DNA of 64,000 nucleotides from Raoultibacter timonensis (GTDB lineage: Bacteria; Actinomycetota; Coriobacteriia; Coriobacteriales; Eggerthellaceae): NCBI RefSeq assembly GCF_900240215.1, contig NZ_LT964679.1, forward strand, positions 583,970-647,969, written 5' to 3'. Under the pieces are notes generated by a model. It was given only the letters and a program-made list of their open reading frames with translations, made no database searches and was not told the origin of the DNA. The translations under genes and the position numbers were made by a program. Numbering within the stretch: position 1 is the stretch's first letter; every line of letters starts with the position of its first letter. Below are positions 22,461 to 52,869 of this stretch, one piece after another.

Positions 22461-22829
22461 GGGGGCGACTGGTTTCGACATGGTAAGTTTGAAATGAGGA
22501 GCAGGTCGTGGTCTCCTCGCCACGTTAAACAGGGGTACCGTCAATTTAATTGGCAAAACCAAAACTCAGAGCGCTCCGGCGCTCGCCATGGCTGCTTAAT
22601 CGCGCTTGGCTGTCGGCCTAGGGATTTCCCCGACCCTGGGTTCGGCATCATCTGAGGGGAACGCTCTTGGACACGTGGTCGGTATGGTCCAAGCTAAGAT
22701 CGAACCGGCTAGGAATCGTTTAGTTCGTCAACGAGCAGAGCGGTTCCGAATCTTAAACGTTGACTAAGCTTGTAGGGCCTCATGGACGATTTAGTATGGA
22801 CCGGAGTTCGATTCTCCGCGCCTCCACCA
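22461..22829 (+). ncRNA. ssrA: Transfer-messenger RNA (tmRNA)
   Basis: The 5' end GGGGGCGACTGGTTTCGAC and the 3' end with TTCGATTCTCC plus the CGCCTCC acceptor strand and encoded CCA form the tRNA-like domain (seven pairs, one G-U). The tag reading frame is GGC AAA ACC AAA ACT ... GCC ATG GCT GCT TAA (22552-22599), giving a tag ending ALAMAA. tmRNA with SmpB rescues stalled ribosomes and marks the products for proteolysis. The last 8 bases (CTCCACCA) are repeated at 30050-30057, because a mobile element is inserted exactly at the 3' end. Confidence 0.97.
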
Positions 22830-24309
22830 CTTGAGAGTCGGGAGCGTTTTCCTCCCGATTTATGCATAGACATCTGGGCAAACGGGAAGTTCCAAATTTT
22901 TCACCGTAAAAAGTGACGAGTTCGGGGAAAAGCCAATTTTGGAACTCCCGCCGGATGTTTATATCATCCAGGCTGTCCAGCGTGTCGCCAATATGCGATA
23001 GCACTTCTATCCCAAAATCTAATACTTGTTCGGTCACGAGAATCGTATCTGATAAATCGCTTAATTCCGCTTTAATCGTTAATGCTTTTCGGTCATTCTC
23101 TTCCAAAACCTTTTGCATATAGGCATCTGAGATAACTCCTCTATGGTTCTTATACATGACATCCAAGCTGTACTCATCGAGGTCTTGCAGCTCCTTCTCA
23201 AGCTGCTTGCGCCGCTTGCAATCGAGAGCTTGCTCTTCGTCAAGATTGAGCCTCACGGCCTCTGCAAGAGCTTTAGCGAACGAGGGATTGTAACTCAACG
23301 TATCGGCATAATCGCGAAAATCGCGCTCTACCTTCATCGCGTCGTAATACTTCCCTTTGCCCCTACACTTACAATGATATTTTCGGTAATATTTTCCGCT
23401 ACTGCCCCGCGACGAACTACCGGTCATCTTATGCCCCTCGGAGCACATCAGTAAACCGCGAAGGGGGAAATCAGGATTCACCATGCAATACTTCGACGGA
23501 TTGTCTTTTTGTCCTTCGAGCCGGTTGTAGACGCGCCACCACATTTCTTTGTCAATGAGGGGTTCAATGGTGTCGCTGCTAATAAGTTCTTCCGTAAGCT
23601 TTGTTTCAATGACCCCCATGTATATCTTTTTGCGAAGCATTTTCGAGAAAGCCTGAAAGGATATGGGCTTCCCGCTTTTTCCAGTCAGCCCCTTGCGGAC
23701 AACTGTACGCCAAGCCTCCGTTACGGAATACCCGCTATCAATTAGTTCCCACGATTCCTTAATAAGCGCAATGCGAAGCGGATTGTCTTCCGGTACAAGG
23801 TTCTTCTTCCCGTTTACCCGGGCGTTCTCGTATCCAAGCGGCGCAACCCACATCCAACGGCCATCTTCCGCGCCACTGACCATGCCACCTCTACACCGCT
23901 CGGCTCTTATCTCGTTTTCTAATTGCGCGTTGAGGGCAAGAGAACCTTCTAAATAGTGCCCAACAGGATTGTCGCCAAATGGTTCGGTAGCGGACACGAT
24001 TCGTACTCCGCATCCGGAAAAGTATTCTTTGAGCTTCGTGTAGTCGGGACTGCTACGAGCCATGCGGTCTAACTTGTATACAATCACCGCATTAATGCCC
24101 CGTTTTGCCGACGTGCAATAACGCATCATATTTTGAAGTTCGTGGCGCTTGGTTGTAGTTGCACTCTCGCCTTTCTCTATAAAGACTTTATCGACTTCGT
24201 ATCCGTTGTGATGGGCGTATTCTCTGCAAATGCGCTCTTGGCTCGCAAGGCTTCCACCGTCATTCACCTGACCGGTAGTCGATACCCTTGTATAGATTAT
24301 CGCTTTCAT
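22780..24309 (-). CDS. Large serine recombinase (site-specific integrase)
   Basis: 509 residues. The N-terminal resolvase domain starts MKAIIYTRVSTTGQ with the catalytic Ser in RVST, followed by VIVYKLDRMARS. The recombinase domain (about 165-270) contains GKSGKPISFQAFSKMLRKKIYMG. A zinc-ribbon region (MCSEGHKM ... YHCKCRGKGKYY, about 290-325) and a long coiled coil (about 340-420) follow. This is the integrase of the island. Its last 15 codons (VEARRIELRSILNRP) and stop lie inside ssrA on the opposite strand, so the host supplied the C-terminus on integration. A 62-residue frame overlaps its start by 50 bases. Confidence 0.93.
   Translation of the reverse strand: MKAIIYTRVSTTGQVNDGGSLASQERICREYAHHNGYEVDKVFIEKGESATTTKRHELQNMMRYCTSAKRGINAVIVYKLDRMARSSPDYTKLKEYFSGCGVRIVSATEPFGDNPVGHYLEGSLALNAQLENEIRAERCRGGMVSGAEDGRWMWVAPLGYENARVNGKKNLVPEDNPLRIALIKESWELIDSGYSVTEAWRTVVRKGLTGKSGKPISFQAFSKMLRKKIYMGVIETKLTEELISSDTIEPLIDKEMWWRVYNRLEGQKDNPSKYCMVNPDFPLRGLLMCSEGHKMTGSSSRGSSGKYYRKYHCKCRGKGKYYDAMKVERDFRDYADTLSYNPSFAKALAEAVRLNLDEEQALDCKRRKQLEKELQDLDEYSLDVMYKNHRGVISDAYMQKVLEENDRKALTIKAELSDLSDTILVTEQVLDFGIEVLSHIGDTLDSLDDINIRREFQNWLFPELVTFYGEKFGTSRLPRCLCINREENAPDSQVVEARRIELRSILNRP
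22822..22829 (+). repeat. attL core, left direct repeat of the ssrA insertion
   Basis: CTCCACCA is the end of ssrA and matches 30050-30057. Insertion here leaves tmRNA intact. Confidence 0.7.
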
Positions 24310-26139: not shown

Positions 26140-27414
26140 TCAAAGATACCGTTTTCGTTTCGCTTTCGCTACGCTGGCTGGTTGACCGTCAATCCAAAGG
26201 TCCTCCTGGATGTCCAAGATGCGCCACTCGCAATTCGGAGCGGGCAAGTTTCTCGGTGTTGATTGACCGCCCTCGTCTTCGTACCAAAAAATGAAAGTCT
26301 TGTACTCTTTAGCTTCAGATTCATATACGAGTTCCACCCCAACATTAGCGACGGCAGCAGCCCTATTGTGCACTTCAACGATTCGGTACGATGACAGCCG
26401 CCTGTTCCCGAATTCTTGTCGAACAGTACCAGGGGCCTTCGAAACACTCTTGCAGAAATACGGCGACATTCTCCCATAGTTACCCTCCTTCCAGTATTCG
26501 AGGAATTCCAGAAGCCTCTCTTCCGGCGAATGGATGGCCACCGTGGAAGGGTCTTCGTTGATGCTGTCGATATACGCTTTTTCCGCGTGGCTATCTTTGA
26601 AAGAAAGCGACGCCGAAATGCTGGGGTAATGTTTGGCTCGGATATCCTCGTTCTGCGCTACGACTTCAGCGACTGACTCCGGCTCCCTTTTTGCCTTTCT
26701 CGTATTCTCCGTTTCCTTGTTTGCCGCCCAGTCGGACACTACAAATAGGAAACACCAGCATTTTGCGGCAACCGTGCTATTCGCATACCCAAGGTCTCTG
26801 CCGTGAAGTATTCCATGCCTATACGGCATGTCTATCGGCTCCGTCCTCGTTTTGTTTCTTGCTCTGCAATATATGTCTCGCACTTGCTCTAGCGCCCCAT
26901 CGACATTCGTAATACTTCCCCAGCAGTCTAAATCGGCGGTTTCGGAATGAAACCCCCTCCCAACGGTATCGTTCACTATCCCGTCAATGAGGGTTACGAG
27001 ATTAAGAATGACCGCATGGTATCGGCTCTCATCATAATCATCATAAGCAAGGTCAAGCAATTCCATCCTGCGCCGCCCAGCGTTTGACCTACGAAGAAAC
27101 GGCCTATGCCCTCTTACCTTGTCGGGAGAATAGTATGAAAGTATGACCCGCTCTGCTTCTTCCATGCCGTCACGGTCGTATGCGGCAACCGCCTGGGCTT
27201 GATGCGTGGGGTCGAGCGAATCGTATACCACCCAGCCTTTTGCGGCGAACAAATCGTTGTAAAGCTGGGCGTTTTTAATTAGCTTCTCAAGCTCAGCTTT
27301 CGTAGCTTTCAGCTCTGCCTTTTGGTCTTCGTCGGCTCGGTGCCAATAGTTTTTCTCTATGTCTTCCACCATTCGAAGCGTGCTTCTCACAGATGGTATT
27401 TCTTCAAATCCCAT
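26140..27414 (-). CDS. HEPN-motif protein with C-terminal NTF2-like domain (candidate RNase effector)
   Basis: 424 residues. Helical N-terminal half; at residues 197-208 the sequence PYRHGILHGRDL contains R199-H-x3-H204, matching the R-polar-x3/4-H motif of HEPN ribonucleases and several abortive-infection proteins. The preceding helices (YHAVILNLVTLIDGIVNDTV) fit a HEPN bundle. Residues about 290-410 (LLEFLEYWKEGNYGRMSPYF onward, then beta strands) look like an NTF2-like fold. I know no named family with this pairing. SD GAGGGAG is 4 bases before the ATG; a perfect 20-bp palindrome covers its promoter region, and a structured RNA candidate lies just beyond. Effector of a defence or toxin-antitoxin system is inference. 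Confidence 0.65.
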   Translation of the reverse strand: MGFEEIPSVRSTLRMVEDIEKNYWHRADEDQKAELKATKAELEKLIKNAQLYNDLFAAKGWVVYDSLDPTHQAQAVAAYDRDGMEEAERVILSYYSPDKVRGHRPFLRRSNAGRRRMELLDLAYDDYDESRYHAVILNLVTLIDGIVNDTVGRGFHSETADLDCWGSITNVDGALEQVRDIYCRARNKTRTEPIDMPYRHGILHGRDLGYANSTVAAKCWCFLFVVSDWAANKETENTRKAKREPESVAEVVAQNEDIRAKHYPSISASLSFKDSHAEKAYIDSINEDPSTVAIHSPEERLLEFLEYWKEGNYGRMSPYFCKSVSKAPGTVRQEFGNRRLSSYRIVEVHNRAAAVANVGVELVYESEAKEYKTFIFWYEDEGGQSTPRNLPAPNCEWRILDIQEDLWIDGQPASVAKAKRKRYL

Positions 27415-27425
27415 ACGCTCCCTCT

Positions 27426-27445
27426 TCCTAAATAATTATTTAGGA
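27426..27445. promoter_or_regulatory. 20-bp perfect palindrome upstream of the HEPN gene
   Basis: TCCTAAATAATTATTTAGGA is a perfect palindrome 12 bases upstream of the HEPN start codon. Its A+T-rich centre can serve as a -10 and the whole as an operator. Confidence 0.65.
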
Positions 27446-27490
27446 TAGAACAATTTGCTATTGGGTGCGAGCATCGGTACAATTCATAAT

Positions 27491-27646
27491 CGCCAAACCA
27501 CAAGACGGAACGTGCTTCGCGCGGGCCAACATAGACTCACCTAAACCGCAGCTACGCGGTTGATTTCGAGGGTTCAGCATCTTGAAGAAGGGCATCTGCC
27601 CCAACAGGATGCTATCTCTCTATGAGGTGAGTCTTGTGGTTTGGCG
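27491..27646. ncRNA. Strongly structured candidate RNA in the divergent HEPN/nuclease intergenic region
   Basis: A 16-bp perfect long-range stem (CGCCAAACCACAAGAC 27491-27506 with GTCTTGTGGTTTGGCG 27631-27646) continues into TCACCT 27537-27542 pairing with AGGTGA 27625-27630. Inside are hairpins CGTG/CGCG (27511-27523), AACCGC/GCGGTT (27544-27561), AGCATC/GATGCT (27576-27581 / 27608-27613) and, nested in that, GGGC/GCCC (27590-27593 / 27598-27601). No protein frame fills the space. It could be transcribed on either strand: it lies upstream of both the leftward HEPN gene and the rightward nuclease gene. It does not match tRNA, tmRNA, SRP, RNase P or a T-box that I can recognise. A DNA element such as a recombination site or MITE remains possible. 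Confidence 0.55.
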
Positions 27647-27758
27647 ACCAGGGGTGGATGCTCTTCCTCTTGCAGGTCGCCTTGCGATTCTCGCGAATCA
27701 TCCTCCCTACACATGTGCCCGCTTTTGTTGAAAAGCTGGCCCCGATGAAGGAGGATGC

Positions 27759-28403
27759 ATGGCAAATAAAATCAAGTACCCCGTCATACGGTGCACGCCG
27801 AAGACCGGCGGCGAACCCATCCTGTGCGAGGGCAGGAAGATTGCGTGCGTGCAAGACTACTGGCGTTGGGCGCACTCCGAGCTGAACAGCAACGCCGAGC
27901 GCGGCAAGTTCGCGGAGTACCTCGTGAGCCTCGCGCTCGGATGCGCGGGCGGCACCAGCGAGGAGTGGGGGGCCTACGACATACTGTGGGAGGCCGAGCG
28001 GGTCAAGGTGGAGGTGAAGACCTCCGCGTACATTCAAGTATGGGGGCAGAAAGCGCTCTCCATCCCCTCGTTCAGCACGCGCCCGTCGCGCGCATGGAAC
28101 CCGGAAGACAACACCTATGAAGAAGCGGTGCGCCGTCAGGCCGACGTGTACGTGTTCGCCCTTGAGAACTGCACCATTCAGGACATGGTGAACCCCAACC
28201 CGCTCGACCTATCGCAATGGGAGTTCTACGTGCTGCCGACCTCGAAGCTGAACGAACGCGGCGCGCAGGCGAACATCAAGCTCCCCCAGCTCGCCGCCCT
28301 AGGCGCACGCAAGGTCATCGAGCTGGAAGACCTTCCCATTGCCGTGAGAGAGGCCGCGCAGGAGAACGCGAAGAACGCCCAGCCGAGCGAAGGGAGCCTG
28401 TGA
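27759..28403 (+). CDS. PD-(D/E)XK nuclease-like protein
   Basis: 214 residues. ERGKFAEYLVSLALG (about 47-61) followed by WGAYDILWEAERVKVEVKTS gives Asp74, Glu85 and Lys87, spaced D-x10-E-x-K, with an upstream Glu in the FAEYLV helix: the restriction-endonuclease core. The hydrophobic strands around VKVEVKTSAYIQVWG fit. It resembles stand-alone proteins often found beside restriction or defence genes, but no methyltransferase accompanies it. GGAGG precedes the ATG. It is G+C rich, unlike the left part of the island, and its stop overlaps the next start (TGATG). Cleavage activity is inferred only from the motif. Confidence 0.7.
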   Translation: MANKIKYPVIRCTPKTGGEPILCEGRKIACVQDYWRWAHSELNSNAERGKFAEYLVSLALGCAGGTSEEWGAYDILWEAERVKVEVKTSAYIQVWGQKALSIPSFSTRPSRAWNPEDNTYEEAVRRQADVYVFALENCTIQDMVNPNPLDLSQWEFYVLPTSKLNERGAQANIKLPQLAALGARKVIELEDLPIAVREAAQENAKNAQPSEGSL

Positions 28404-28621
28404 TGTATACGTACAAAGGGAAGACCGACCCCGGCACCCGCGCCATCGTCTTCGAGGACGGCATGCGGGAAGTCTACGCGACCGTCTCCGGGTGGTCGGG
28501 CTGCGGCAGCGACATTGCGTCGGTGTCCATAGACGGCACCGTGGCGACCGTGGAGCTGACCGGCGGCATCCGCAAGCGCTTCGAGCTGGACACGGGCACC
28601 AACACCGCCCGCGAACTGTAA
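28403..28621 (+). CDS. Small beta-rich protein coupled to the nuclease gene
   Basis: 72 residues, MYTYKGKTDPGTRAIVFEDG onward, predicted to be beta strands with a Gly-rich loop (SGWSGCGSDIASVS). The start codon overlaps the nuclease stop by one base, and AAGGGAG lies 9 bases upstream, implying coupled translation and a functional link, for example an immunity or accessory factor. I do not recognise a family. Confidence 0.65.
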   Translation: MYTYKGKTDPGTRAIVFEDGMREVYATVSGWSGCGSDIASVSIDGTVATVELTGGIRKRFELDTGTNTAREL

Positions 28622-28630
28622 GGAACAGCT

Positions 28631-29707
28631 ATGAAACTCAGAACCGAAAGCAAGGGGATGCCGCTTCTCGGCGCTAAGGCATCGGCCTTGGTCGCGTCGT
28701 GCATGCTGGCCTGCGTGCTGGGAGGATGCGCGGCAGAGGAGAGCGTGCCGCAGGAAAGCGTGGAACAGGCGCTGCTTGCAGCTGCCGACAACGGGGAGTT
28801 CGCAGCCGCCGACTACGTGGAAGCGTCGGCCTACCGCCTCGAAAGCTGCGAGGTCGCCGGGCAGGAGCGGAACGAGGACGGGGCAACCGCCGTGACTGCC
28901 CGCGCCGTCCTGGCGAACGACAGCTTCAACGTAGAAGCGCAGACCGTGCTCGATTTCGCCAAAGAGGGCGACCGTTGGGTTCTGGCCGGGTCCGACTTCG
29001 CAGGAACGAAGGTCAAGGCCATCAAGGGCGTTGACTACCTCGTAGGGCCAGCAGACCAGGCGAGCCTGTCGGGGGACTCCTCGGGAGCCGAGAACAAGGA
29101 GCCGCTGTCGGGTTATTCGGGAGCGGAAGCAGCTTTCGACGAGACGGCCCAAACCTGCACCGTGACGCTTCCCGTCGCTCAGGACGGGGGCAACTGGTTC
29201 GTGCGCCCTGCGAACAGCGCTTCCATCAAGTTCGTGTTCGACGGCAGGAAATGGGCGAACGCGGGCACGGAGAGCGCGAGCGACTTCACGTCAGACTACC
29301 TCGGGCAGACCTTCACCGACGGCCCCTGCTCCGTTACGCTCGTCAACGTGACGGAGAGCGTCATACAAGTGGAGTTCGCATGGTCGGGAGAGAAGTACGA
29401 GCAAGACCCCGATAGCGAGTACACGTACCTTCCGGGCACATACGCTGGCCTTGCGGGTCAGGGAGCCATAGCCGTGCCCTTCGAGGCATCGGCCACCTAC
29501 TCGGGCGAGTACAGCCTTGGGGATTCAACGGCGGTGAACAAGTACAGCCAGCAGTCGGGCAAGGGCTTCGTCTTGACGCGGGATTCAGGATTCGAGGACA
29601 CCGACACGCCGTCAGAGTTCGAGTGCCGTTTCACCGCAGACAAGTCTTTGAGCATGACGTGGAGTTTTCAGGATACGACGCATCAAGCAACGTTCAGGCT
29701 CGTCTAA
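28631..29707 (+). CDS. Secreted lipoprotein of unknown function in the island
   Basis: 358 residues. The N-terminus has a signal sequence (ALVASCMLACVLGGC) ending in the lipobox LGGC, so it should be anchored on the outer face of the membrane. A DUF4878/NTF2-like region (VEQALLAAADNGEFAAADYV then EASAYRLESCEV) is followed by a beta-rich domain (about 150-358) of extracellular type without recognised motif. It is the last gene of the rightward group and ends near a hairpin terminator. Its presence on the island suggests surface exclusion or another fitness function, but that is speculation. Confidence 0.75.
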   Translation: MKLRTESKGMPLLGAKASALVASCMLACVLGGCAAEESVPQESVEQALLAAADNGEFAAADYVEASAYRLESCEVAGQERNEDGATAVTARAVLANDSFNVEAQTVLDFAKEGDRWVLAGSDFAGTKVKAIKGVDYLVGPADQASLSGDSSGAENKEPLSGYSGAEAAFDETAQTCTVTLPVAQDGGNWFVRPANSASIKFVFDGRKWANAGTESASDFTSDYLGQTFTDGPCSVTLVNVTESVIQVEFAWSGEKYEQDPDSEYTYLPGTYAGLAGQGAIAVPFEASATYSGEYSLGDSTAVNKYSQQSGKGFVLTRDSGFEDTDTPSEFECRFTADKSLSMTWSFQDTTHQATFRLV

Positions 29708-40993: not shown

Positions 40994-41060
40994 TAATGCA
41001 CGCTTTTGTCAAGGAAAACCGCTAGAGTAAGCAAGGAATGCTTGACAAAAGCGTGCATTA
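40994..41060. promoter_or_regulatory. 20-bp perfect inverted repeat at the 3' side of the AbiEi/DUF559 gene
   Basis: TAATGCACGCTTTTGTCAAG (40994-41013) and its exact complement CTTGACAAAAGCGTGCATTA (41041-41060) are 27 bases apart. The arms resemble those at 42283-42341. No T-tract follows on either strand, so a terminator is unlikely. Confidence 0.7.
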
Positions 41061-42282: not shown

Positions 42283-42341
42283 GCACGACTTTGACAAGCA
42301 TAAGTATGCAAATTTGGCCGATCTGCTTGTCAAAGTCGTGC
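42283..42341. promoter_or_regulatory. 18-bp perfect inverted repeat enclosing the AbiEi/DUF559 promoter
   Basis: GCACGACTTTGACAAGCA (42283-42300) and TGCTTGTCAAAGTCGTGC (42324-42341) are exact complements, 23 bases apart. On the minus strand the TTGACA of one arm serves as a -35, and TGCATACTT in the spacer as a -10. The second arm then covers the transcription start, an ideal repressor arrangement. Confidence 0.7.
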
Positions 42342-52828: not shown

Positions 52829-52869
52829 GCGAAAAGGAAAGCCCGCATTGTGCGGGCTTTCCTTTTCGC
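52829..52869. terminator. Long hairpin terminator of the glutaredoxin gene
   Basis: A 19-bp stem (52829-52847 with 52851-52869) with a 3-base loop. Four A on one side and four T on the other let it work in both directions; on the minus strand it terminates the glutaredoxin gene that stops at 52907. Confidence 0.85.

Follow-up and report, generated by a model that had tools for sequence, protein, structure and literature searches.

Translational riboswitches that contain a pseudoknot are 5' leaders in which a conserved domain of P1 and pseudoknot is combined with a separate platform of Shine-Dalgarno (SD) and anti-SD strands, whose pairings are mutually exclusive. The c-di-GMP-I and c-di-GMP-II riboswitches occur as multi-copy leaders ahead of surface proteins, and the T-box leaders of the translational type in Actinobacteria combine UGGN with a long leader that carries an anti-SD. 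A further structured RNA of Actinobacteria and the human gut is Collinsella-1 RNA, RF01700 (PMC2864571).

The RNA element that begins at position 27491 of the window (the whole 64-kb stretch of DNA analysed here) shares with the pseudoknotted translational riboswitches each of the features just named, and by analogy it may work like one of them or like a protein-responsive leader, but its architecture fits no Rfam class and the genes it precedes are surface and accessory ones of diverse kinds. Its occurrence in multiple copies before surface proteins is common to the c-di-GMP-I and c-di-GMP-II leaders, yet it has no covariance-model match to them and nine of its carriers have no GGDEF proteins. 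The GGUGG of its tail resembles the T-box UGGN, and both are long leaders with an anti-SD, which we take as a lead only, whereas the element matches no T-box model and the genes downstream are not amino-acid or tRNA genes. Collinsella-1 RNA is also unmatched, its one weak match in a relative (L180, 20.2 of 35 bits) lying outside the element. A scan with Rfam 15 of the window together with 8 relatives and 13 diverged ones gave no family that reached its cut-off at the element. A weak match to IMPDH RNA (RF02994) at 27637–27741 is attributed to chance because it is far below the cut-off (21.8 vs. 95.4 bits) and absent in relatives, and the remaining weak matches of a permissive scan fall off the element. 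We found no description of the motif in the literature, where supplementary candidate lists such as those of PMC8040213 may hold it as an unnamed entry. The RNA family is a previously unlisted one of the Coriobacteriia (gut Actinobacteria), and sequence comparison makes it likely, in our judgement, that the leader in the window and its family constitute a translational switch and a new cis-regulatory RNA family in this class.

The original prediction, which was made from the letters alone, had described a perfect 16-bp outer stem and an inner helix, and both are present exactly as stated. The stem, P1 (Table 1), reaches 17 bp when T27490/A27647 is included, and the inner helix AGACTCACCT/AGGTGAGTCT (27533–27542/27625–27634) has 10 bp without a mismatch. 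The second copy of AGAC that it pointed out is equally real in that GTCT at 27631–27634 is common to both helices and can pair with AGAC at either 27503–27506 or 27533–27536; the orthologous locus L105 does not show this duplication, and its P1 is kept with different letters. This regularity is indeed beyond chance, with the + strand folding as RNA at −78.6 kcal/mol (z = −8.6) and with 4 inverted repeats of at least 16 bp within 300 nt in the 64-kb window vs. 0 in 10 dinucleotide-Markov versions. The − strand folds at −67.5 kcal/mol (z = −5.5), so the lower energy and lower z favor the + strand. The other perfect repeats of this kind, which have 16 bp or more and a short spacer, lie at 40994–41060, 42283–42341 and 52829–52869 and are probably terminators. 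As had also been claimed, the gap at 27415–27758 holds no plausible protein-coding gene among the open reading frames checked.

What had been missed is a pseudoknot of 9–12 bp, in which the apical loop pairs with a tail outside P1; the relatives each have the outer stem P1 together with a 9–12 bp pseudoknot. With this pseudoknot strand the full element runs past the stem to approximately 27674, and in functional terms it reaches as far as the start codon at 27759. The proposal of a structured noncoding RNA therefore stands as regards a conserved structured RNA on the + strand, but not as regards a self-contained one, because a pseudoknot strand lies outside the limits that were drawn, and the four internal hairpins that it stressed turn out to be the least conserved part of the element.

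The element is a real structured RNA. Compensatory changes in homologues, which the original prediction had put forward as its own test, proved massive: two-sided changes occur in all 24 pairs (355 cells) of 102 aligned copies, and 97.2% of the P1 and pseudoknot cells are paired compared to 40–58% in slid controls. The fitting of this alignment used P1 and the apical hairpin without the pseudoknot, and two of its rows are weak opposite-strand matches. A structure-free MAFFT alignment gives 97.6% paired vs. 42–48% slid. The loop:tail duplex has −20.1 kcal/mol with a leader's own tail and −16.0 with swapped tails, a difference reached in 0 of 5000 permutations. Entire strands have been exchanged in the course of this covariation, with the pseudoknot wholly rewritten in L218 (GGGGGAGTCT with AGACTCCCCC), L180 and L215, and P1 in many copies (ACCACAAC/GTTGTGGT, GATGAAC/GTTCATC and CGGTGAAT/GGTTCACCG among them). 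Invariant letters are found mostly within helices, and the little unpaired conservation consists of a GAATA joining motif and the AC-GGNGG tail. Conserved secondary structure with compensatory changes, one mark of a cis-regulatory leader, is present here. A small open reading frame in the tail (conserved GGUGGAUG) was considered and rejected because its AUG disappears where the pseudoknot covaries (L218, L165, L138 and L162) while the pairing persists.

Table 1. Features of the leader and the genes behind it (positions in the window)
Feature	Position	Strand	Remark
Promoter TTGCTA, 17 nt, TACAAT	27455..27483	+	−10 box stops 7 nt short of the RNA
P1 5' strand, RNA start	27491..27506	+	12 covarying pairs in relatives
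Small hairpin after P1	27507..27527	+	in many relatives, not all; letters not conserved
Variable arm	27533..27630	+	sequence and length free to vary among relatives
P2, within variable arm	27537-27542/27625-27630	+	can extend to 27533-27536/27631-27634
Side hairpin, within variable arm	27544-27561	+	
P3, within variable arm	27568-27584/27605-27620	+	
Apical loop AGAAGGGCATCTGC	27586..27599	+	pseudoknot 5' strand = 27587-27597
Small hairpin GGGC-ATCT-GCCC	27590-27601	+	also formed at apical loop
P1 3' strand	27631..27646	+	perfect pairing with 5' strand
GGCGACC with alternative partner GGTCGCC	27643-27649/27675-27681	+	alternative pairing tested over family
Tail GGGTGGATGCTCTTC	27652..27666	+	pseudoknot 3' strand = 27656-27666
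Tail segment pairing alternatively with anti-SD strand	27652-27660	+	
Anti-SD strand CATCCTCCC	27699..27707	+	perfect 8-bp inverted repeat with SD
SD region GGAGGATG	27750..27757	+	1 nt ahead of ATG at 27759
First gene, 214-aa protein	27759..28403	+	96% identical in L105
72-aa gene, probable operon member	28403-28621	+	no family named
358-aa lipoprotein-like protein, probable operon member	28631-29707	+	no family named

A plain DNA search gave one copy in the window's own genome and 7 diverged copies in 5 other genomes, which have in common GTTTGGCGAC followed by the tail GG(T/C)GGATGC(T/C)CT, partly beyond the interval first proposed. Of the two covariance models built here for the family search (R1 and R2), R1 alone returned 105 matches in 53 of the 398 genomes of the class, and after model R2 there were approximately 135 relatives in 72 of the 398 Coriobacteriia genomes (40 of 153 genera), with up to seven copies detected per genome. 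The covariance-model search of the phylum beyond Coriobacteriia yielded one weak match, i.e., essentially none. DNA search and models alike find one copy in the genome of the window, and the model search finds none in its same-genus relative G001. A scan of the genome collection for the tail pattern found 28 distinct copies with the P1 5' arm, nearly all with the apical loop AGAAGRGCATCTGC, in organisms that, where precisely named, are Eggerthellaceae or other Coriobacteriia (Adlercreutzia caecimuris included); stray matches in other phyla have neither loop nor P1. Identical sequences equate G059 with JAAVZC01 and G006 with A. caecimuris B7, and family f1 is therefore Eggerthellaceae. Plasmid and phage records contain no match to the element, and from viral contigs we discarded a sole tail-pattern match without apical loop or P1 arm as well as eight exact copies of the P1 16-mer whose surroundings bear no likeness to the element. 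Model R2 also revealed a compact subfamily of approximately 117 nt, mostly ahead of a 69-aa protein, with the GAATA joining motif and with P1 and P2 covarying. The orphan protein of approximately 69 aa behind these compact RNAs (L199–L212) has no family name, and its neighbours vary, with Abi-like, KAP NTPase and AlbA/Schlafen-like genes among them.

The promoter given in Table 1 is the sole promoter-like site in 27380–28900. Across the family the −10 box ends 5–7 nt upstream of P1 in 93 of 100 copies, and it follows from this fixed spacing that transcription probably begins at P1. Between the divergent gene at 26140–27414 and the RNA promoter sits a perfect 20-bp palindrome, TCCTAAATAATTATTTAGGA (27425–27444), which is operator-like and largely retained in L105. 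Gene starts were chosen automatically; their median distance downstream of the RNA is 83 nt, and usually the distance is 40–100 nt. Approximately one-third of them lie more than 100 nt away or are uncertain, and those beyond about 140 nt are uncertain. This proximity argues for a 5' leader rather than a stand-alone RNA, and another mark of a cis-regulatory leader, its own 5' promoter with a same-strand gene start shortly downstream, is also observed. A transcription attenuator was rejected, since the window leader showed no terminator-like site on its + strand.

In a set of 70 leaders, the SD is paired to a degree of 0.77 vs. 0.62 in shuffled sequences (p = 1.5e-9), and no effect is seen in 107 control genes of the same loci (0.56 vs. 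0.54, p = 0.64); the window's own leader, at 0.76 vs. 0.71, is near the shuffled level. The tail:anti-SD duplex, at −13.7, is stronger than shuffled (−11.4, p = 3e-7), swapped-tail (−12.5, p = 1e-4) and reversed controls, a statistic weaker than that of the pseudoknot, since the purine-rich character common to SD and tail is part of the reason why anti-SD strands resemble the apical loop. The P1 3' strand pairs with a GTCGCC-like stretch downstream in a test over the family. In 15 leaders not used earlier the p-values are 0.004 for the SD and 0.0004 for the tail, which are optimistic since many of these leaders are closely related. L216 and L218, in which loop, tail and anti-SD strand are all altered in concert, belong to these 15. 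All four competing strands (loop, tail, anti-SD and SD) are present in the window. Across the family the SD is usually sequestered and an alternative pairing is available, as in an expression platform; at the level of sequence, these pairings and the fact that they exclude one another are demonstrated. MFE folding of the window leader indicated no preference between the states, the program used being one that cannot predict pseudoknots. With a promoter just ahead of the first base in relatives, and usually a gene start nearby and a sequestered SD, the element most likely serves as 5' leader to the gene at 27759.

These pairings suggest a way in which the leader could act. Transcription would begin at P1 and the RNA would fold into P1, the variable arm and the pseudoknot, with the apical loop capturing the tail that directly follows P1 on its 3' side. 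For as long as this capture lasts, the downstream anti-SD strand would occupy the SD and translation would be OFF. If the P1/pseudoknot domain opens, the tail, which is an SD look-alike (GGYGGAUGC), would change its partner to the anti-SD strand, and the P1 3' strand to the downstream GTCGCC, which would free the SD (ON). We infer this direction of switching (pseudoknot OFF, tail on anti-SD ON), as well as the response to a signal, be it a metabolite, a protein, an RNA or a physical one. What the switch controls is probably the production of mainly surface and secreted proteins.

The 214-aa protein encoded directly behind the leader received no name from PADLOC, NCBIfam or Pfam. In G262 (L105) the block 27420–28624 is conserved at 88% and homology stops at 28624; the promoter and the first gene show near identity and the RNA much greater divergence, and P1 has gone from CCACAAGA/TCTTGTGG in the window to CCTCAAAA/TTTTGAGG by two compensatory changes at the orthologous position. 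A broken paralogue of the 214-aa protein lies in the same genome as the window at G000:C3:926998-927595 (L194), without a detectable RNA copy. By a simple hydrophobicity rule, and with some of the proteins being paralogues, an N-terminal signal or membrane segment is found in 40 of 67 first downstream proteins (60%) vs. 37 of 140 controls (26%, p = 6e-6). Aside from this secreted/membrane bias the downstream genes define no single pathway: they include zinc-ribbon proteins, BspA-type leucine-rich repeats, Listeria-Bacteroides repeats, fn3 and PASTA families, a signal peptidase and some restriction-like genes. Elsewhere in the window, a large serine recombinase (22780–24309, − strand) overlaps the 3' end of the tmRNA gene (22461–22829), and this region (22461–24309) probably marks an element that has inserted at the tmRNA gene; no repeat of at least 14 bases of the tmRNA 3' end, which would mark its other end, was found within the window.

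As to what such a leader would sense, it is a serious though tentative possibility that the family represents a riboswitch class that is new and occurs in Coriobacteriia alone, with a putative small molecule other than c-di-GMP or c-di-AMP stabilising the P1/pseudoknot domain and with the loop and anti-SD strand, which resemble each other, competing for the tail. Somewhat more doubtful, but still conceivable, is the same leader with a different kind of input, with a putative protein, trans RNA, ribosome or temperature/ions opening or closing the domain; this would sit well with targets that are surface, secreted and accessory proteins and not one pathway, with the small unpaired conservation, and with the exclusion of c-di-GMP and c-di-AMP, although a fixed core with fast-diverging arms equally suits a ligand-binding RNA. 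A variant of the c-di-GMP or c-di-AMP riboswitches, as the surface and adhesin-like targets might suggest, is very improbable in view of the missing Rfam riboswitch match, the lack of the GGDEF domain in nine carriers (G017, G018, G029, G058, G177, G253, G279, G305 and G340) and the lack of the DAC domain in 27 of 30 carriers; because carriers without the synthetases exist, neither dinucleotide is the general signal.

The original prediction had instead seen a noncoding RNA in a gap without proteins, and the reading that corresponds to it is a stand-alone small RNA with its own promoter that just happens to lie upstream of genes and acts in trans. The promoter at +1, the strong independent fold and the existence of some copies without a well-called gene within 140 nt would all agree with it, but it is unlikely given that the gene start lies at 40–100 nt in most copies, that the + strand of the window leader has no terminator-like site, and that SD sequestration and the tail:anti-SD complementarity extend into the downstream leader. 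The DNA-level mobility that the prediction itself named as an alternative, by MITE-like copies, or else a recombination element in which the inverted repeat matters as DNA, could draw on the long perfect terminal inverted repeat, the patchy distribution, the leader and first genes forming one conserved block and the serine recombinase adjoining the tmRNA gene nearby. We consider it refuted, and so hardly credible at all, because of the covariation throughout and the fixed position ahead of genes; there is also just one copy in the genome, relatives are alike in structure and not in sequence, and the placement of promoter and SD is strand-specific.

The Coriobacteriia, to which Adlercreutzia and the other Eggerthellaceae belong, are common in the gut, and the post-transcriptional regulation of their surface proteins is, to our knowledge, little understood. 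A translational leader of the kind proposed, with its very strong covariation and its co-change of loop, tail and anti-SD strand, would provide a ready assay for the signal that Coriobacteriia sense, the concerted change being a built-in test of the switch, and the leader RNA may serve as a genetic control element for these organisms. If the family is indeed a new riboswitch class, the competition between loop and anti-SD strand for the tail would determine how strongly surface, secreted and accessory proteins are translated.
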